Shown here: one piece after another, positions 1,641 to 10,947 of the stretch
Position numbering within the stretch: the stretch's first letter is position 1
Layout of the letters: each line of letters begins with the position of its first letter
Source: Thermoplasmata archaeon
GTDB lineage: Archaea > Thermoplasmatota > E2 > DHVEG-1 > B18-G2
DNA length: 15,713 nt
Direction of reading: 5' to 3'
Assembly (NCBI GenBank): GCA_021161685.1
Contig: JAGHAD010000124.1
Span: 1-15,713, forward strand
Translations under genes and position numbers: made by a program
Notes under the pieces: model-generated
What the model was told of the DNA's origin: nothing
What the model saw: the letters and a program-made list of their open reading frames with translations, nothing else
The model's database searches: none

Positions 1641-2054
1641 TCACTCCTTTAACCTTTTACACATCTTTACTACCGCCTCAACGGCTTGTTTAGCTCTGTC
1701 TATCCTATCCTCAGCCTGAAGCCTTGTCATTCCCGGCCCGGTTATTCCCAGTCCAACTGGCTTGTCATATTGCAAAGATAAATCGATGATCTTCCTCGCT
1801 GCATGTTGCATGACGACTTCATCGTGTTCTGTTTCGCCCTCTATTACTGCTCCAAGTGCAGCAACACCATCTATGTCGTTCCTTTCCAGTAACTTTTTAA
1901 TTGCGAGAGGCATGTCAAAAACTCCAGGAACCTTTATCACCTTCCTCACTTCTGCACCCAAAAATTCTGCATGCTCTTTAGCTCTTTCTAGCATCATCAT
2001 GGTTATATCGTAGTGGAACTCACTTACCGCTATACCTATCCTAATTCTATCCAT
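1641..2054 (-). CDS. ribH: 6,7-dimethyl-8-ribityllumazine synthase
   Basis: RibH condenses 5-amino-6-ribitylaminouracil with 3,4-dihydroxy-2-butanone 4-phosphate to form lumazine, the penultimate step of riboflavin synthesis. The 137 residues match the usual archaeal length. The substrate-binding segment SEFHYDIT lies at 11-18, VPGVFDMP at 43-50, and the signature [13 protein letters not shown] at 68-80 carries the active-site histidine (H77). It is the last gene of the rib operon. The ribC stop TAG is followed directly by this ATG, and an AGGAGG ribosome binding site lies inside the end of ribC, so translation is coupled. The ribC product is a distant paralogue of this enzyme family, as is typical of archaea. 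Confidence 0.97.
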
Positions 2055-2960
<906 letters not shown>

Positions 2961-2973
<13 letters not shown>

Positions 2974-3656
2974 TTCCTCCACTCCTCTTCAATTTCCCTC
3001 CCTTCTAGAAAAACATAACCCTTTTTTCTTGCATATGCCTCAGCTTCTTCCTTGCTGAGAGCCTTTCCATCCTCGCCCATCATCTCGCAACCGCAGGCAA
3101 CTGGGGTTAGACCAGCCATTTTCAAGAGAGCGACACTTAATTCAGTATGACCTTTTCTTTCTTTCAACAACCTTTCCCTAGCTATACAAATTGGAACATG
3201 ACCCGGAGATCTGAATTCTTTGCCGAATGCTTTTACTCCATCTTTGATATTGCCAATTCTCCCAGCGAGCTCCGCGAAGCGCCTTATTGTTAGTGCTCTA
3301 TCTCTATCTGTAATGCCGGTAAATGTATTTCTATGATTTATGGAAATGGAAAATGATGTTCTACCATCGTAAGGAATGTCAGACGGGTGTATTTCTTCGA
3401 ATAGGGGGAAACTGTATCCGAGAAATTTGTATATCTCCTCGAGATAAGGTAACTTAAAGAACCTTGCTATCTCGTTTGATACCATTAACACTATGAGTCC
3501 TCCACCATCCTTCCTCATTAATTTTATATGATCAGGTGTAACAAACTGTGCAGGGATTATCAAATCTGTTTCTCCCTCTCTATTTTCGTCATCGAATATG
3601 AGGATCGTTTTTCCCTCCTTCAGATCATTGCAAGCTTTTGCTATCTTAGAAATCAT
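2961..3656 (-). CDS. ribB: 3,4-dihydroxy-2-butanone-4-phosphate synthase
   Basis: RibB converts ribulose 5-phosphate to 3,4-dihydroxy-2-butanone 4-phosphate and formate. The 231-residue protein has FDDENREGETD at 21-31 (acidic metal and substrate site), DGRTSFSISINHRNTFTGI at about 97-115, RSPGHVPICIA at 149-159, and KGHTELS with H170 and E172. It is a stand-alone enzyme with no RibA (GTP cyclohydrolase II) fusion, as expected in archaea, where the GTP branch uses other enzymes. It is the first gene of the rib operon. The upstream GGTGAT sits immediately before the ATG, so the ribosome binding site is close and rather weak. A 64-base gap separates it from S17e. Confidence 0.96.
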
Positions 3657-3976: not shown

Positions 3977-4645
3977 ATGATAACGCTGGTTGGAATAGGT
4001 CATGTCTTTGATCTTAGAAAAGAGATAGAGAAGATCATTGCCTCAGAAGAACCCGATTTAGTTTGCGTGGAGCTGGACAAGGAAAGATACGAATCCCTTT
4101 TGGCTGAGCATGAAGAGGGCAAGCTGAGAGGTATGCCACTACCATACGTATTTCTTGCCCGCTTCCAAAGAAGGATAGCCAAACTCTATGGCGTTAGCGT
4201 TGGTAGCGAGATGCTTGCTGCCATCAAAGTTGCTAGGGAAAAGGGAATAAGGGTTGAGCTCATAGATGTAAATGTTAGAGAGATGTTTACCAGATTGTGG
4301 AGATCTCTTTCTTTTAAGGAAAAACTAAAACTCTTTGTCACTTCTCTTGTTTCCCTCTTCGTAGGAAAGAAACATGTGGAGAGAGAGTTGAAAAGATTCC
4401 AGAAAAACGAAGAGAATTTCTTGAAAGAGGTTGCTAGAGATTTTCCAGTAATGAAGAGGGCTGTGGTTGATGAGAGAAACGAGTATATGGCTAGGAAGTT
4501 AAATGAACTTAGCAGGGAGCATGAAAAGATAGTAGCCATCGTTGGAGACGGTCATGTTATGGGTATAGAAGATTTGCTAAGGAAAGAGGGTTTGGAAGTA
4601 AAAGTTATAAGGCTGAGAGAATTAATTGATTTCGGGGACCCGTAG
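3977..4645 (+). CDS. TraB/PrgY-family protein (short form, Tiki/GumN-like fold)
   Basis: This 222-residue protein belongs to the TraB/PrgY family, which shares the EreA/ChaN-like putative metallohydrolase fold with Tiki proteases. Visible family marks are GIGHV with H9 near the N-terminus, ELDKERYESLL, SVGSEMLAAIKVA in the middle, DERNEYMARKLNEL, and the C-terminal GDGHVMG (H193). The family's GxxH-type histidines are thus present at both ends. PrgY-like archaeal members often carry a C-terminal membrane region; none is evident here, so this looks like the catalytic domain alone, apart from a mildly hydrophobic segment around LKLFVTSLVSLFVG. The substrate is unknown. I use ATG 3977 because longer in-frame starts would extend into the divergent promoter. 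Its TAG stop lies within the tRNA gene that follows. Confidence 0.87.
   Translation: MITLVGIGHVFDLRKEIEKIIASEEPDLVCVELDKERYESLLAEHEEGKLRGMPLPYVFLARFQRRIAKLYGVSVGSEMLAAIKVAREKGIRVELIDVNVREMFTRLWRSLSFKEKLKLFVTSLVSLFVGKKHVERELKRFQKNEENFLKEVARDFPVMKRAVVDERNEYMARKLNELSREHEKIVAIVGDGHVMGIEDLLRKEGLEVKVIRLRELIDFGDP
4601..4612 (+). promoter_or_regulatory. Possible internal TATA box for tRNA-Arg
   Basis: AAAGTTATAAGG inside the end of the TraB-family coding region is centred about 30 bases before the mature tRNA 5' end. That fits archaeal TATA-to-start spacing with a few leader bases. If real, the tRNA has its own promoter within the coding gene rather than depending on read-through. Confidence 0.35.
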
Positions 4646-4710
4646 CCTAGCCTGGATAGGGCGACAGCCTCCTAAGCTGTAGATCGCGGGTTCGAATCCC
4701 GCCGGGTCCG
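4636..4710 (+). tRNA. tRNA-Arg(CCU)
   Basis: A full cloverleaf folds by hand. The acceptor stem GGACCCG pairs perfectly with CGGGTCC and the discriminator base is G at 4710. The D arm is GCCT with GGGC, including one G-U-type pair. The anticodon stem ACAGC/GCTGT encloses the seven-base loop CTCCTAA with anticodon CCT, which reads AGG. The T arm is GCGGG-TTCGAAT-CCCGC. There is no intron and no encoded CCA. The first ten bases overlap the TraB-family gene, whose TAG stop is formed by T8, A9 and G10 of the tRNA. AGG is a common arginine codon in this window. A recombinase remnant lies immediately downstream, suggesting past use of this gene as an integration site. Confidence 0.96.
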
Positions 4711-4742
4711 TTCTCTTCACAGGGAGGAATTTCCATCAAAAC

Positions 4743-4755
4743 CGTTTTTATTTTC
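4743..4755 (+). terminator. T-rich terminator candidate after tRNA-Arg
   Basis: The run CGTTTTTATTTTC lies about 33 bases after the tRNA 3' end. Archaeal transcription commonly ends at oligo-T tracts, so this is the most likely end of the TraB-family/tRNA transcript. A weak TTTTC/GAAAA dyad overlaps it. No strong GC hairpin is seen. Confidence 0.4.
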
Positions 4756-4771
4756 GAAGTTTTGAAAAAAT

Positions 4772-4831
4772 GGTTCCGGCTATCTATCTCCCCGGTTTTG
4801 CCCCACCCGGTTCGGAGGACGTACCGGAACC
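4772..4831. repeat. 8-base inverted repeat GGTTCCGG ... CCGGAACC
   Basis: Perfect 8-base arms at 4772-4779 and 4824-4831 are separated by 44 bases that also hold shorter CCGG-containing repeats (CCCGG at 4791 and 4807). The element lies at the 3' end of the recombinase remnant and next to the tRNA. It may be a recombinase arm site or a scar, or chance in a GC-richer patch. Confidence 0.4.
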
Positions 4832-5157
4832 AATCAAAGGGATACTTGTGAAAGAGAAGATCAGCCTGCTTCACGTATCTCATGGTCGTTTTTGGATCCC
4901 TGTGCCCAAGCCAAGAAGTTACAAGGTAGAGATCATAGGATCCACTTTCAAGCTTCGATTTTATCAGCAACCCGCAGGCACACCATAATCGGCTGGAATA
5001 GGGATAAAACTGTGCCCAGACTCTCTTGCCGTGCTGTAACAGGGGTCTTCTCAGGTATTCTTTAGAACTCAGGGGATGCCGTTTGACAGAAGGAAAAGGT
5101 AATCCTGATTTCAACCAGTTTGCAAAGCTTGCGAAAGAGAAAATCTGTCTACAAAGG
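4780..5157 (-). pseudogene. Truncated tyrosine recombinase/integrase remnant
   Basis: The reading frame keeps the catalytic C-terminal half of an archaeal tyrosine recombinase. It has EYLRRPL and FYPYSSRLWCA (the second catalytic arginine, in the archaeal YPYxxR form), then VTSWLGHRDPKTTMRYV. The latter carries the box histidine of LGH and the nucleophilic tyrosine in TTMRY, followed by YPFDWFRYVLR. The N-terminal core-binding domain and the first catalytic arginine are missing. Upstream, the frame runs straight into the 3' end of the radical SAM gene with no start or ribosome binding site. Downstream it continues past the recombinase homology into the antisense of tRNA-Arg, which is not real protein. 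It is most likely the remains of an element once integrated at this tRNA. Boundaries are approximate. Confidence 0.8.
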
Positions 5158-6030
5158 CTAAAGCATCTTTTCATACTCCTCAGGCAAAGCACAGCAAGCT
5201 TCTATTCTTTTTATCTTATAACCAATGTCTTCAGCCAACTTCAAAGTTTCCTTTGATGGAATCTCCATTCTATTAACCCCAGCCAAAAGAGCTTTTCTCT
5301 CTATCTCCACCCTTCCCTTTGTTCTTGGCCTCATGCAACCTAAGGAAATGTCAACATCGGGAAAGCTCTCCTTTGCATATCTCGCAACCTTATAAACATC
5401 TTCTGGATCCGGAATTTTTGCCTTTTCAAATTCCGTCCCCTTTGTTGGCTTCAAAACTATGAGAACAAAAACAGAAGGTTTCACAACTTCCTTGACAATA
5501 TCTATTGCATCGAATTCACCACCAAGATTTCCAGCATTGAGACCTATGCATACATGTGGAACGATGTGCTTTACCCCTGCATCCCTAAGGTTTTCAAGTG
5601 TCCTTCTGTAATCATCTACCTTCAAATTCACCCCAAAAACGTCCTTTATAATTCTATCTGATCCAACCACTTCAACCGAAGCGATATCTATGCCTGCACT
5701 CGCTATACCCTCGGCAAGCTCTTTATCTACGATTCCAGTGTGAAGCTTTATGATAAGATCTGTTTCCTCTTTTACCCTCCCTATTACCGGAAGGAACTTC
5801 CTTAGATTTATCATTTCTCCATTTCTTTTAAAACCTCCACTCAGCAACACACCAACTGCACCCTGCTCCTTTAGTTTTTTACAGGTTTTCATCAATTTTT
5901 CTGGAGAAGAGACGTCAAGCATATCCTTTAGATAAATCCTGTTGCAGTGCTTGCATCGCAGGGCGCAGGATAGACCTGATAATGATAGTGATGGAAACCT
6001 GGGCCAGACGTAATAAGCCTTAAAGATCAT
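5158..6030 (-). CDS. Biotin-synthase-like radical SAM protein, probable lipoyl synthase component (LipS type)
   Basis: This 290-residue radical SAM enzyme has the [4Fe-4S]/SAM motif C22-x3-C26-x2-C29 (SCALRCKHC). Extra cysteines at C232 (SLGCMRPRTKG) and C279-C280 could bind an auxiliary cluster. It resembles the COG1856 'biotin synthase homologue' family, to which a component of the archaeal two-protein lipoyl synthase LipS1/LipS2 (shown in Thermococcus kodakarensis) appears to belong. Those enzymes insert two sulfurs into octanoyl chains on carrier proteins. I cannot tell which of the two this is. Context supports lipoyl assembly, since the first gene of the operon is a lipoate ligase. The ATG overlaps the upstream gene's stop by 11 bases, so translation is coupled. 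The gene ends at the junction with the recombinase remnant. Confidence 0.8.
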   Translation of the reverse strand: MIFKAYYVWPRFPSLSLSGLSCALRCKHCNRIYLKDMLDVSSPEKLMKTCKKLKEQGAVGVLLSGGFKRNGEMINLRKFLPVIGRVKEETDLIIKLHTGIVDKELAEGIASAGIDIASVEVVGSDRIIKDVFGVNLKVDDYRRTLENLRDAGVKHIVPHVCIGLNAGNLGGEFDAIDIVKEVVKPSVFVLIVLKPTKGTEFEKAKIPDPEDVYKVARYAKESFPDVDISLGCMRPRTKGRVEIERKALLAGVNRMEIPSKETLKLAEDIGYKIKRIEACCALPEEYEKML

Positions 6031-7222
6031 AATCCTCTCTTACCTCGTAGACCAGTTTGATAAAATCATCATCGCTAACCTCTCCCTTTTTCTCTCCCAA
6101 TTCCTTTACCATGTTTACTATCGCATTTATTTCTTCCTCATCTGCATTTATTCCAAACTCTCCAAGCTTCTTCTCTATAGCATGTCTACCGCTGTGCTTG
6201 CCTAGAACTATTCTCCTTCTATTTCCAACGATCGATGGATCTATGGGCTCGTAGGTTCTTGGGTTTCTTAGAACGGCAGCAACGTGTATGCCAGATTCAT
6301 GTGCAAATGCATTTTCTCCAACAAATGGTTGGTTCTTTGGAACATCTACACCAGCACATTTCGATACTAAGATAGACAGCTCCTTTAATTTTTCCGTATC
6401 TATTCCAAGGTCTATGCCATACAGATACTTGAGAGCCATTATCAGCTGTTCTAAAGGAACATTTCCAGCTCTTTCTCCCCATCCATGAACCGTAGCACAG
6501 ACATATCTGGCACCCGATTTTAATGCTACAATCGCATTTGCCAGAGACAATCCAAAGTCATTGTGTAGGTGGGCGGATATTGGTAGGCTAGTGAATCTGT
6601 ACATCTCTGAAAACAGGTATTCTATTGCTTCAGGTGTTGCACAGCCTAAGGTATCTGTGAAGCCAACCCTTTTTGCGCCGACTTTCTCTGCTAACTTGAC
6701 AAACTTCTTTAAAATATCCATTGGTGTTCTCGTGCTATCCTCGGTGCTAAAGCTGGGAATAACACCATGTTCTTTCACATAGTCTATGGAATCTGCAATC
6801 AACTTTTCAATATCTTCTATGCTCAAGTTAAGCTTGTATTTCAGATGCAGAGGCGATGATGCTATAAACAGGAGAATAACATCAACATCAGCTTTTATGC
6901 AGGCATCGATATCTTCCCTCTTTAATCTTGATAAAGCCAGGATCTTCGCCTTTAACCCTTGTTCTGTTATCATCTTTGTGGTTTTGACTTCCCTTTCGGA
7001 TATTCCGGGAAATCCAGCTTCTATCTCTTTTATTCCCATTTCATCGAGCAATATGGCTATGTTCAACTTCTGCTCAGGAGAAAATGCAACTCCCGGCATC
7101 TGCTCTCCATCTCTTAGCGTAGAATCGTAGATTATGATATCGTTTCCCCATGGAAAGTGAACCTTTTTATTGTACATGCTCAGAGAAAATTCATCTCCAG
7201 AAATTCCATTCATCCCTTCCAT
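6020..7222 (-). CDS. Homocitrate/2-isopropylmalate synthase family enzyme (AksA-like)
   Basis: This 400-residue DRE-TIM metallolyase condenses acetyl-CoA with a 2-oxoacid. The signature YDSTLRDGEQMPGV (R37, D38) is near the N-terminus, FIASSPLHLKYKLN lies at 119-132, the metal-binding HLHND at 218-222, GWGERAGN at 247-254, and FAHESGIH at 306-313. FIASSPLHLKYK and the C-terminal GKHSG region resemble homocitrate synthase AksA of methanogens more than leucine-pathway LeuA. It lacks the roughly 120-residue C-terminal LeuA regulatory domain, so leucine feedback is unlikely. Substrate choice (2-oxoglutarate, pyruvate, 2-oxoisovalerate or a longer 2-oxoacid) cannot be read from the sequence. It sits between a lipoate ligase and a LipS-like enzyme, with overlaps of 32 and 11 bases, and no leu, aks or nif partner is nearby. 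An ATG at 7213 is an alternative start. Confidence 0.88.
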   Translation of the reverse strand: MEGMNGISGDEFSLSMYNKKVHFPWGNDIIIYDSTLRDGEQMPGVAFSPEQKLNIAILLDEMGIKEIEAGFPGISEREVKTTKMITEQGLKAKILALSRLKREDIDACIKADVDVILLFIASSPLHLKYKLNLSIEDIEKLIADSIDYVKEHGVIPSFSTEDSTRTPMDILKKFVKLAEKVGAKRVGFTDTLGCATPEAIEYLFSEMYRFTSLPISAHLHNDFGLSLANAIVALKSGARYVCATVHGWGERAGNVPLEQLIMALKYLYGIDLGIDTEKLKELSILVSKCAGVDVPKNQPFVGENAFAHESGIHVAAVLRNPRTYEPIDPSIVGNRRRIVLGKHSGRHAIEKKLGEFGINADEEEINAIVNMVKELGEKKGEVSDDDFIKLVYEVREDYDL

Positions 7223-7904
7223 ACCTCTCCTCTATCAGCCTTTCTATCATCTCCTTTTCATAATCACTCAAATCACCCTTCACAAATCTCGCTCCCATCG
7301 CTTTACTAAATTTCTCAACCAACGTTCTTTTAAGCCCTTTAATGTCGACCTTTTTCCCCTCTTTCTCCAAGCTTGTTACTTCAACATCCTTTCTCTTTGG
7401 AAGAATCCTTTCCATCGCATCAAGATCACTATTAACCAATATCGTTCCATGAACAAGAACAACACCTTCTCTTACGAGCAGGGCAGAACCAGATACTTTC
7501 TTGCCATTTACCAGTACATCGTTTGGTTTCTTGTAACTAGCATCAAAACCAAGATCTTCAAGAGCACTCCTTATGGAGTTGCAAACCATTTCAAAGATCT
7601 TTAATGGATTCATAATATGAGATTTAAAAATCAAGCCATAAATCAAGCAACCTTCATCGGTGTATATAGTCCCTCCGCCACTCTTCCTTCTAACGATCAT
7701 AACGCCTCTCTTCCTGCATTCTTCAAGGTTAATCTCTTTTATGCTTTTCATCCTTCCAATTGATACGGCTGGTGGATACCTTCTATAGAAATGTAAAGTA
7801 AAAGGGGCTTTGTTCTTTGAAACAGCTATGGATATGGCATCGTCTGCTGCGGTAACATAATATGGATGGGCGAGATCGGTATCTATCAGCCTCCAAGTGT
7901 GCAC
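7191..7904 (-). CDS. Lipoate-protein ligase family protein (LplA catalytic domain type)
   Basis: This 237-residue protein of the biotin/lipoate A/B ligase family activates lipoate or octanoate and transfers it to lipoyl domains. The lipoyl-AMP-binding segment RRKSGGGTIYTDEG lies at 72-85, PNDVLVNGKKVSGSALL at 127-143 with the expected catalytic lysine K136, and HGTILVNSDLDAM at 152-164. The cysteine that LipM octanoyltransferases carry just ahead of the GKKVSG segment is absent, which favours an ATP-dependent ligase. The separate accessory domain of some archaeal ligases is not in the window. Translation probably starts at GTG 7904 with no clear ribosome binding site; a TTTTATC box about 27 bases upstream suits a leaderless transcript. 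It is the first gene of the operon. Confidence 0.88.
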   Translation of the reverse strand: MHTWRLIDTDLAHPYYVTAADDAISIAVSKNKAPFTLHFYRRYPPAVSIGRMKSIKEINLEECRKRGVMIVRRKSGGGTIYTDEGCLIYGLIFKSHIMNPLKIFEMVCNSIRSALEDLGFDASYKKPNDVLVNGKKVSGSALLVREGVVLVHGTILVNSDLDAMERILPKRKDVEVTSLEKEGKKVDIKGLKRTLVEKFSKAMGARFVKGDLSDYEKEMIERLIEERYGRDEWNFWR

Positions 7905-8022: not shown

Positions 8023-10947
8023 ATGAGAGATCACGACAAGGTAATAATAGCGGTTGGGATAGCTATCCTAGTTATAGCATCCGTTGGCATTTTTTTCTAC
8101 AAGCCTGGTGGAGCTATTCAGAGGCTAACGAGCGAGGAAATTGCCCGCATGATGGGCATCCTTCGAGATGTTCCATCGGGAATAGAAGTGTCCGATAAAA
8201 ACCCATTCTATCCATTAATACTAACACCATTGGCAATTCATTACGATAGGGAAGGGAATAGGGAGGCGATTCCCCTTTACGTTAAGAACATGACAAATCC
8301 TTCAAAGGCGGTGATAAGAACGGAAATGCTTGTTGGTAAGCCAATTGATTTGCTTATAGATGGAAGTAAAGACCCGGAGCAGGTATCTCTAGAAATAGCA
8401 GAAAGATATTGGAAGAAAGCCGATATTGCACTGATCTTAAAGGATGATAGAGAAGGATACATAGTTGGACTACCAGCAGTACCAATAGCAAGTTATCTGA
8501 CCGCTCCGATAATAGTTACAGATGAGATAGATTCGAAAGTTTCTAGGGTGCTCGGTAAACTTGGGGTTAAGTGCTTGCTACTATGCGGTAATATTTCAGC
8601 TGATGGTTATAGTTCTTACAAGATAAAGAGCCTAGATGATGCCCTGAACCTTACAATTAGTATAGTTGAAAGGAAATTCGGAGAGGTTGAATACATAACC
8701 ATGGCAAATCCTTTAGATGCATGGCCTCCCAAAGTATTGGATAGAAAATTCTACTCCTCTGATGTTCTCGAGCTTTCAACATTCGCCGGAGCGACTCAGC
8801 TCATTCCTTGGTTAACAGGGCTACTTACCGGCAAAACCCAAGGTGTTTTCGAGTTTGATATACCGGAGGATTACAAGTATGCCCTTGTAAAAATAGAGGT
8901 CATCAACCTAGATCATGAAGGTGTTGATCTGTTTGGAGATAAAGTGAGCGTCAGTGGTGGTATTGTAGATCCTGATGAGCCAGAGAATCTTCAAACCGAT
9001 GAGCTGATAAGCTTTGGTTTATCTACGGCATCTAATCCAGCTGTTAGGGATGCAGGCGGAAGGGTAATCAAGGACAGATTTTACCATGAGACCCTGCTGT
9101 ACGGAAGGGGCGGAGCCAAGTACAGGATTGTAGTAAGTGGAACTTGGCTGGAAAAGAAGAGAGGAAGGGTAAAGATAAACGTTGAGGTTGATAAGCTTGA
9201 AAGTCCTTATTATGCGATGATGAAGAAACTCTCGAGCATAGCACCCTATTTAACCGCATACCACAGGGGTATCATCTTTGCAAAACCCGAATTTGCCTTC
9301 TATCCAAACGATGATGTGAGAACACCAAAGGATGAGAAATGCGCTGGTTTCTATTCGGTTAGGAAGAATCCAAAGCTGGTTCATGCTCACAACAGGCACG
9401 TGCTCAAGATCCATGAAAAACTTAACAAGTTACTTGCAAGGTTAGCAGATATTCCCGTTGATGATCTGAAAAATCTCAGAGAGTATTACAAGGAAAATCC
9501 GATCTACATAGCCATAGTTGGAGATGGAGAGATGATACCAAGGATAATCTATGATAATCCAATCTGTCCAATTACCTATGAACAAAGTAGATATGGTTTT
9601 GCATATGGAGTGGGAACACCCAGCGATTTCATCTACGGAAATATAGATCCAATCTATGAGGATATCCTAACCTTTTCATACACCGCAAACGATACTTACA
9701 GTTACTATCCATACCAAGAAAACATCGTCGGAAGACTTGCCGGCTGGGACGTCCAAGATGTTTGTGCCCAAATCATAAGGACGATCTTCTACTACGATAT
9801 CATAGAGAAGTTAGGCGATTGGAAAGACAATGCGGCCGTACTGGTTGGAGGAGGGCAGGACTTCCAGAGGCCACCGATCAGATACATGATATCAAAGCTA
9901 ACTGGCAATGATGAAGCATGCGTCAAGTTGCCAACTGGATACACAAAGATAATGATGGAGAGAACGAAAGAGCTTATCCTAGAGCCCATGGGATTCAATG
10001 TCTTGACCGCACTGGATTATAAAGCTATGATAACTGGACTGAGCGATGAAGCCTTAACAAGGCTTAAGAATGCTAACCTGCTGAATAAGCTATTTCTCTT
10101 CAGGAAAAACTACGTTGCAAGGTTCTTGGGTGAGGATGTAGCTAAAGGAGGAGAGTACATAGAGAAGAGTAACTTTGTCATGATAAACGCGCACGCACAG
10201 CCAGCGAACATGGGGGCAACCGGTCCATCCGTACTTGGAGTGGGATGGGGAGGTCCTCTATCCAGATTGTTCTTTGAGAGGATAATGGCATGCATAGATG
10301 GTGGATGGTTCGGACCAAGCGCCTTAGGCATGGATGACATCGGAGATTATACCGCTAGAAGTATATCCAGGCTGAAGCTCGGTCCATCCGTGATATGGCT
10401 GAATGGATGTAATCCGGGCAGGATGACCGGTGTTTATCCGATTCATCTGGTAGCCTTTGCATTCATTCATTCAGGCGCAGCAGTTGTGTTTGCTCCATCC
10501 ATGGAAAGTAACATAGCCGGTGGTTACCTCGAGCCAAAGAAGCATGTATGGGATACGCCTTGGTCCGTCCTTAGGGCTTATCTCAATACAACAAGGAATG
10601 CAAAGAAGGGAATCTATCCGGATGCGCACTTTGGTTATCTACTGTATGAAGACATGTGTAAGGAGCTGATGAAGAATGCAACCATAGGTCTTGCATTCAG
10701 GAATGCCAAGAATGCATACCTACCAAAAGATGCAAACTGGACTCTCTGGTGGTCTCCACCGCTCATGACGACTGGTAACTTCTTGCTAGATTTCAAGATC
10801 GTGAAGGAGAGGTTCGAAAAGTTCGTGGAGATGTCCGGTGGAAAGAAGACGAGGGTCTTGCCAAACAAGTACTTTGAATTCCAGGAATGGGAGCTTTACG
10901 GAGATCCAGCCTTCAATCCATACATACCTGGAGAAGAAAGTGAGTGA
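8023..10947 (+). CDS. Membrane-anchored C25 (gingipain)-like cysteine protease, extracellular
   Basis: This 974-residue protein has an N-terminal hydrophobic segment (residues 7-26, after RDHDK) that is either an uncleaved anchor or a signal peptide, so the rest is probably outside the cell. Residues about 155-195 (YLTAPIIVTDEIDSKVSRVL, then GVKCLLLCGN) resemble cell-wall-binding repeat 2 or a Rossmann-like half. A beta-rich stretch follows at about 280-400. The C-terminal half looks like the caspase/gingipain fold: YIAIVGDGEMIP at 495-506, VGRLAG at 569-574, a likely catalytic histidine in INAHA (H724), and a likely catalytic cysteine in IWLNGCNPG (C796). The chain ends in LYGDPAFNPY, a common closing motif of C25 proteins. 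It is monocistronic. The substrate is unknown; nutrient peptide breakdown or surface-protein processing are options. The assignment rests on remembered motifs. Confidence 0.72.
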   Translation: MRDHDKVIIAVGIAILVIASVGIFFYKPGGAIQRLTSEEIARMMGILRDVPSGIEVSDKNPFYPLILTPLAIHYDREGNREAIPLYVKNMTNPSKAVIRTEMLVGKPIDLLIDGSKDPEQVSLEIAERYWKKADIALILKDDREGYIVGLPAVPIASYLTAPIIVTDEIDSKVSRVLGKLGVKCLLLCGNISADGYSSYKIKSLDDALNLTISIVERKFGEVEYITMANPLDAWPPKVLDRKFYSSDVLELSTFAGATQLIPWLTGLLTGKTQGVFEFDIPEDYKYALVKIEVINLDHEGVDLFGDKVSVSGGIVDPDEPENLQTDELISFGLSTASNPAVRDAGGRVIKDRFYHETLLYGRGGAKYRIVVSGTWLEKKRGRVKINVEVDKLESPYYAMMKKLSSIAPYLTAYHRGIIFAKPEFAFYPNDDVRTPKDEKCAGFYSVRKNPKLVHAHNRHVLKIHEKLNKLLARLADIPVDDLKNLREYYKENPIYIAIVGDGEMIPRIIYDNPICPITYEQSRYGFAYGVGTPSDFIYGNIDPIYEDILTFSYTANDTYSYYPYQENIVGRLAGWDVQDVCAQIIRTIFYYDIIEKLGDWKDNAAVLVGGGQDFQRPPIRYMISKLTGNDEACVKLPTGYTKIMMERTKELILEPMGFNVLTALDYKAMITGLSDEALTRLKNANLLNKLFLFRKNYVARFLGEDVAKGGEYIEKSNFVMINAHAQPANMGATGPSVLGVGWGGPLSRLFFERIMACIDGGWFGPSALGMDDIGDYTARSISRLKLGPSVIWLNGCNPGRMTGVYPIHLVAFAFIHSGAAVVFAPSMESNIAGGYLEPKKHVWDTPWSVLRAYLNTTRNAKKGIYPDAHFGYLLYEDMCKELMKNATIGLAFRNAKNAYLPKDANWTLWWSPPLMTTGNFLLDFKIVKERFEKFVEMSGGKKTRVLPNKYFEFQEWELYGDPAFNPYIPGEESE

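Follow-up and report, generated by a model that had tools for sequence, protein, structure and literature searches.

An AksA-like synthase gene is coupled to lipoate-assembly genes in Thermoplasmata archaea and may begin the lipoyl carbon chain

We analysed a 15,713-nucleotide stretch of the genome of a Thermoplasmata archaeon (contig JAGHAD010000124.1 of assembly GCA_021161685.1; this whole stretch is hereafter the window) and found that three overlapping genes are coupled there: those for a lipoate ligase-type protein (LplA), an AksA-like synthase and the radical S-adenosylmethionine (SAM) protein LipS1; the same gene order is seen again in other genomes, and the observation generalises across a clade. 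Judging from the sequences, the three genes may form a lipoyl-assembly operon whose synthase starts a 2-oxoacid elongation, independent of fatty-acid synthase, leading to the eight-carbon (C8) lipoyl chain; this is the best single reading, unproven, and we hold it with slightly less than even confidence. These little-known archaea thus suggest a possible route by which microbes without ordinary fatty-acid synthesis might supply the C8 backbone of lipoate. The octanoyl source of archaeal LipM homologues has been described as unresolved (PMC10332631); an elongating-family synthase in the lipoate operon of a non-methanogen brings that question within reach of a direct assay on a single purified enzyme, and if the reading is true, coenzyme B, leucine and lipoate biosynthesis would be joined by one chemistry. 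Among the titles and abstract openings searched, in which subscription journals were thinly covered, no lipoate-linked chain-elongating synthase was proposed.

Three overlapping genes in the window

Archaeal in its gene families and relatives, the draft genome (1.16 Mb, 157 contigs, 87.9% complete) that holds the window as contig C140 is labelled G000; other G-numbers denote genomes, and L-numbers denote loci or alignment rows. A first-pass annotation of the window had described three overlapping genes, and these were confirmed, all on the minus strand (Table 1); its naming was likewise correct, with a ligase-type domain, a synthase without the LeuA domain and a LipS-type radical SAM protein that we assign to LipS1. 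If the first start codons are used, LplA and the synthase overlap by 32 bases and the synthase and LipS1 by 11. A promoter and terminator scan gave nothing better than shuffled sequence.

The LplA-type protein matches the lipoyl ligase A/B catalytic domain PF21948 (144.4 bits, 5.8e-42) and PF03099 (3e-13) in Pfam. RR..GGG and the GKK lysine have roles in the LplA catalytic domain, and an alignment of 12 LplA-type proteins contains RR..SGGG and GKKVSGSA motifs. An LplB-type domain was not listed in this protein by Pfam or NCBIfam, and the remainder of the genome was not searched for LplB; LipMs are described as having no LplB domain (PMC10332631).

LipS1 scores 258.3 bits against NCBIfam model NF053742, above the cut-off of 230, while the LipS2 model gives 21.7 bits for the same protein; by homology, it is predicted to insert sulfur at C6, the published division of labour being C6 for LipS1 and C8 for LipS2 (PMC9585515). 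Its Cx3Cx2C motif and further C, CC and PH motifs are kept in an alignment of 11; we compared them with the published ligand list of Thermococcus kodakarensis LipS1, whose sequence stands outside the alignment and whose auxiliary ligands are C230, C276 and C277, with H159 (PMC9585515).

Table 1 Coordinates of the genes and features discussed.
Feature	Location	Strand	Remarks
LplA/LipM-type lipoyl(octanoyl) ligase or transferase	window 7191-7904	minus	237 aa; GTG start; catalytic domain only
AksA-like isopropylmalate/homocitrate-family synthase	window 6020-7222	minus	400 aa; DRE-TIM barrel; without LeuA regulatory domain
LipS1, radical SAM half of two-protein lipoyl synthase	window 5158-6030	minus	290 aa
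LeuC	L104:7827-9086		in G000; passes HacA_Meth (557.4 of 550)
LeuD-type	L104:9083-9580		in G000; beside LeuC
AksF2-like dehydrogenase	L106:3720-4847	minus	in G000; 393.5 of 540
RSAM6	L002:1237-2235		in G000; on another contig than the window
PhzF-family isomerase	L065:7636-8505		just upstream of synthase
PhzF-family isomerase	L066:6650-7519		just upstream of synthase; family tested on this copy
PhzF-family isomerase	L067:6271-7140		just upstream of synthase
Methanogenesis marker protein 11	L070:7753-8706		in G080, between synthase and LipS1
Second LeuD copy	G000:C78:2-806		tail-to-tail with GcvH
tRNA-Arg(CCT)	window 4636-4710		directly behind LipS1
Tyrosine-recombinase-like C-terminal piece	window 4636-5192		enters the tRNA gene
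974-aa protein	window 8023-10947		divergent from LplA
Riboflavin cluster	window 1641-3656		four genes

The link between synthase and lipoate genes recurs

One set of 194 genomes of the phylum was searched for LipS1 and for the synthase (E<=1e-30), and the neighbourhoods of synthases of the window's clade (see below) were read in 18 genomes, G041 as L219. LplA and/or LipS1 adjoin the synthase in 12 of the 18. LipS1 lies immediately downstream of it in G000, G146, G129, G105 (a locus without LplA), G175 and G126; the two are linked at a contig edge, as a fragment, in G163, and with one gene between them in G080; and LplA alone stands beside the synthase in G005, G017, G035 and G041, the last cut by a contig end. 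Clade synthases without a lipoate link are found in G177, G168, G083, G007, G010 and G018. Among named genomes, the best 80 loci (more exist, many are short and one, L200, has no called synthase) include at least 14 linked ones, at least seven of which are records beyond the 12 genomes (L155, L156, L157, L158, L160, L161 and L171). The linked records are named as Thermoplasmata, Thermoplasmatales, Candidatus Thermoplasmatota or Euryarchaeota archaeon. The neighbourhood survey that the first-pass annotation suggested thus shows an association extending past this genome. When Bathyarchaeota, Thermoproteales, Methanothrix and Hadesarchaea loci were screened with models built from this phylum's LplA and LipS1 copies, neither was seen within four genes of the synthase.

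In the window's order (32 genomes), the synthase adjoins LipS1 in six of the seven LipS1-bearing genomes, G163 by a fragment and G169 being the exception; a synthase of this clade occurs in none of the other 25 (Fisher 8e-6, kinship ignored). Copies in G184 and G193, 38% identical, were classed as a different kind, in the case of G193 on identity alone. The linked synthases are 44-59% identical to the window's, with G163 at 77%.

Operons of another family of the window's order carry a PhzF-family isomerase gene between LplA and the synthase. In G080, which gave no mcrA match, the gene separating the synthase from LipS1 encodes methanogenesis marker protein 11. A synthase 61% identical to the window's (P0015) is labelled Petrotogales bacterium, reflecting either transfer or mis-binning.

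The synthase belongs to a clade of its own

Pfam lists HMGL-like (4.1e-74) and HCS_D2 (9.6e-28) domains in the 400-residue synthase and does not list the LeuA dimer/regulatory domain; it is the sole match of its family found in G000. It scores below the cut-offs of TIGR02090 (468.4 bits against 484.75), the CimA model TIGR00977 (236.8 against 450), the NifV model TIGR02660 (370.8 against 462.9) and the LysS model TIGR02146 (358.7 against 413.55).

From 119 synthase rows, identical ones removed, we retained 99 at 90% identity for a first tree, which places the window synthase within a 53-row clade (Shimodaira-Hasegawa-like approximate likelihood ratio test, SH-aLRT, 99). Rows that pass the NCBIfam models for LeuA (L238), CimA (L240), NifV (L235) and LysS (L246) fall outside this clade; none of these models is passed by the window synthase, methanogen L071 or L077 of G005. 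A careful tree of 54 rows, with six of the 53 clade rows left out (L045, L173, L176, L180, L181 and L203), supports the clade at 100/98 and, within it, a 12-row subclade containing the window at 100/99. All 12 rows of the subclade, L155 included, are lipoate-linked. The 16 linked rows, again counting L155, imply four changes on the careful tree, two of them forced by its starred branches, which indicates either that the lipoate link is old and has been lost in places or that it arose more than once; several rows are long-branched, making their placement unsure. The first-pass annotation had asked whether the synthase forms a clade apart from LeuA, AksA, NifV and CimA: its clade lies away from the rows that pass the LeuA or CimA models, and equally from those passing NifV and LysS. 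As for AksA, the clade includes methanogen copies, in trees that contain no characterised AksA as reference.

An AlphaFold2 model of the synthase (predicted local distance difference test, pLDDT, 93.8) has homocitrate synthase 6ktq and methylthioalkylmalate synthase 6e1j among its closest folds. In homocitrate synthases of the LysS type, the arginine of the RFxxED motif binds the far carboxylate of 2-oxoglutarate. The corresponding column is Ser157 in the window synthase, Arg in homocitrate synthases 6ktq and 3ivs and in L246, which passes the LysS model, and Glu in isopropylmalate synthase 3rmj; across the 119 rows it holds S in 66, R in 18, E in 17 and others in 18. Trp248 of the GxGER motif occurs in 12 of the 119 rows, all within the window's lipoate-linked subclade and not in L160 or L161; elsewhere the position is Ile, Leu, Met or Phe, and once Val.

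Separate synthase copies of 372-373 residues with the Arg motif VRYTPED (L246, L247, L248 and L249) are present in G129, G146, G169 and G184; LplA, LipS1 and RSAM6, a radical SAM family described below, were not seen in the 10-13-kb stretches around them.

Genomic background and candidate partners

We searched 37 genomes, many incomplete but including all 12 linked genomes (72-99% complete), for IlvD, mcrA and GcvH. IlvD was found in none of 33 non-methanogens, the 12 linked genomes among them, and in all four methanogens; mcrA was found only in these same four. The lack of both in the linked genomes argues against a role in leucine or coenzyme B synthesis. GcvH was found in 35 of the 37, including every linked genome, and not in G177 or G060. 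G000 has LeuC, LeuD-type and AksF-like genes, all on contigs other than the window. In three genomes of the window's family, GcvH and an additional LeuD copy are arranged tail-to-tail (G000, C72 of G163 and C34 of G097).

The LeuD loop of G000 reads YLAI where the Methanocaldococcus jannaschii homoaconitase small subunit 2pkp has YLRT, so that the Arg is absent; in several f3 genomes the loop reads YLEI or YLDI, and the loop pattern missed some loci, including those of G163 and G146. A search of 35 genomes for the citrate synthase domain gave no match in G000, G163, G080, G017, G035, G002, G038, G177 or G055.

A radical SAM family tracks the synthase

In the same number of genomes, the LipS2 model (E<=1e-12, with 160 bits set as a strong match) gave matches of at least 160 bits in 15 of 35, five of them above the cut-off of 270; the G035 and G041 matches are fragmentary. 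No match of this strength was found in G000, G163, G146, G105, G175, G126, G007, G010 or G018. At its cut-off the search also returned RSAM6, a radical SAM family resembling BioB and LipA whose members have about 330-380 residues, in 12 of 18 synthase-clade genomes and in none of the other 17 (Fisher 3e-5, kinship ignored); as the LipS2 model was used, weaker copies may be missed. Adding G126 and G018, whose copies are below the cut-off and were seen only through the adjoining synthase, gives 14 of 18, a more biased count than the 12 above. RSAM6 is the operon's first gene in G126 and adjoins the synthase in G018.

RSAM6 proteins score 37-76 bits against LipS2 model NF053743 (cut-off 270), G000's own copy 76.4. 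They carry Cx3Cx2C, a conserved KIC and a C-terminal MCxxC..C; at the column of LipS2 C85, which with C276 and C279 makes up the LipS2 auxiliary cysteines, all 11 RSAM6 rows are non-Cys, while the C-terminal CxxC is present. Comparison with solved sequences and a Foldseek comparison of the model (pLDDT 91.4) both rank biotin and lipoyl synthases first. Because of the sub-cut-off score and the C85 column we rejected RSAM6 as a simple LipS2; it might nonetheless stand in for LipS2 as the inserter of sulfur at C8. G177 carries RSAM6 with neither a strong LipS1 nor a GcvH match.

Sister synthases (L071, L166, L168, L178, L180, L183, L184 and L186) lie near a CysK-CysE-CysS-RSAM6 run, PyrK/PyrD and SufS-like genes, although CysK was not seen in L178; the gene families were named on L071 of G177. 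XcbA, a ComA-like protein, adjoins the sister synthase in many methanogen relatives.

Weighing the explanations

In the pathway that we tentatively favour, the synthase would condense acetyl-CoA with monocarboxylic 2-oxoacids, LeuCD would isomerise the product and the AksF-like enzyme would decarboxylate it oxidatively, each turn adding one carbon up to 2-oxononanoate; a candidate 2-oxoacid oxidoreductase would turn this into octanoyl-CoA, the LplA/LipM protein would load the octanoyl group onto GcvH, and LipS1 plus a C8 sulfur-inserting partner would complete the lipoyl group.

Several observations weigh against this pathway. A strong LipS1 match (best E<1e-40) is present in 61 of the 194 genomes of the phylum and the synthase lies directly beside it in only six of these, plus G163 and G080; near-complete LipS1 genomes such as G034 and G068 have no synthase match at 1e-30. 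The methanogen sister synthases adjoin ComA-like, cysteine and pyrimidine genes and have no lipoate link, and methanogen G177 has a clade synthase but no GcvH match and no strong match to LipS1. The synthase is missing from some genomes that encode LeuCD and the AksF-like dehydrogenase, so we set aside the co-occurrence of these enzymes with it as not exclusive; likewise G097, which lacks the synthase, shares the YLAI loop, undermining that loop as evidence for an alkyl substrate. There is no strong LipS2 match in the window's genome, and no citrate synthase match either, so that Re-citrate synthase activity is possible. Finally, L235, which passes the NifV homocitrate synthase model, has Ser at the Ser157 column; we therefore dropped Ser157, a residue that does not decide the substrate, as proof against 2-oxoglutarate, and moved our confidence in elongation from evenly balanced to a little below that.

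Perhaps the synthase and RSAM6 instead build a chain for another sulfur-bearing cofactor, a coenzyme-B-like thiol or an unknown one, or elongate 2-oxoglutarate, the lipoate genes adjoining through shared sulfur or acyl chemistry. RSAM6 indeed tracks the synthase, even in G177, with the sulfur and pyrimidine genes, and in part XcbA, near the sister copies and the marker 11 gene inside the G080 locus. The linked genomes, however, have no mcrA match, which makes a coenzyme B role in them unlikely; RSAM6 of G000 sits on a separate contig, and the genes that tightly overlap the synthase in the window are those for LplA and LipS1; we regard this explanation as rather unlikely. In another reading, which we consider quite unlikely, the synthase is of the Re-citrate or methylcitrate type and its product is turned into 2-oxoglutarate by LeuCD, working as aconitase, and the AksF-like enzyme, working as isocitrate dehydrogenase: G000, G163, G080, G017 and G035 do lack a citrate synthase domain match, and LeuD adjoins the dehydrogenase in relatives G002, G023, G038 and G060, but in none of these four was the synthase matched at 1e-30, a citrate-synthase-domain protein of about 620-650 residues (a putative ATP-citrate lyase) is present in most other linked genomes, G105 has a fused aconitase, and the coupling to lipoate genes would be left without a reason.

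That the adjacency is chance or a regulatory neighbourhood with no common pathway seems very unlikely. The genomes are drafts and the partners vary, with PhzF intervening between LplA and the synthase in one order but not in the window, and LplA missing from the G105 locus; yet the genes overlap, and the linkage holds on several branches and at the low synthase identities given above. Least probable of all is an ordinary leucine or isoleucine enzyme, that is, an isopropylmalate or citramalate synthase: the family resemblance speaks for it, while the unlisted regulatory domain, the separation from LeuA and CimA rows in the tree and the lack of an IlvD match in all 33 non-methanogens, many of them incomplete genomes, make it so.

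Elongation towards lipoate thus stands as the first-pass annotation proposed it in part: coupling and recurrence are borne out and leucine or coenzyme B roles are unlikely, while the step from 2-oxoacids to octanoyl is still an inference because LeuCD and AksF-like enzymes occur without the synthase and most LipS1 genomes have no synthase neighbour. A more far-reaching version, a full lipoate pathway free of fatty-acid synthase, would join elongation, octanoyl-CoA, LplB-less LipM-type transfer, and sulfur insertion by LipS1 and by RSAM6 as a new C8-inserting family replacing LipS2, with the synthase-RSAM6 pair serving another thiol-bearing acyl cofactor in methanogen relatives; taken whole, we consider it unlikely.

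Other features of the window

The tRNA gene next to LipS1 is entered by the C-terminal piece of a tyrosine-recombinase-like open reading frame, SWLGHRDPKTTMRYV, identified by eye and without a Pfam or NCBIfam match; it is likely the remnant of an integrated element. On the other side, the 974-residue protein, whose N-terminus looks hydrophobic by eye, matches nothing in Pfam or NCBIfam; long open reading frames occupy its position in G163 (935 residues) and L155 (989 residues, overlapping LplA). The compact riboflavin cluster comprises ribB, an adenylyltransferase-like gene, archaeal ribC and lumazine synthase.

Comparison with known systems

The window synthase resembles AksA, the (homo)citrate synthase of methanogen coenzyme B synthesis, in being short and without the LeuA regulatory domain; several near homologues are named 'methanogen homocitrate synthase' in IMG, and the HacA_Meth match of G000's LeuC recalls the AksA setting. 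Unlike AksA, it belongs to a host without an mcrA match and to a lipoate operon. Among methanogen paralogues, the NifV-type copy L235 of G177 adjoins LeuC, LeuD and a dehydrogenase. Plant methylthioalkylmalate synthase (6e1j; third-ranked fold match, template modelling score 0.85, 36% identity) performs iterative 2-oxoacid elongation, and differs in being a plant enzyme with methionine-derived substrates and another gene context. Engineered pathways also employ iterative ketoacid elongation (PMC5595793).

With the LplAB/LipM-LipS1-LipS2 assembly (PMC10332631, PMC9585515) the window shares an LplA-type catalytic domain and LipS1 in one operon; it differs in the added synthase, in a protein without the LplB domain and in a genome without a strong LipS2. 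The archaeal neighbourhood networks reported for that system name a ligase, GcvH and another radical SAM protein (PMC9585515), and the word isopropylmalate was not found in the main text of either paper. RSAM6, in turn, shares the Cx3Cx2C radical SAM core with LipS2, biotin synthase and LipA, and is set apart from LipS2 by its low score, its C85 column and the KIC and C-terminal MCxxC..C motifs of its own.

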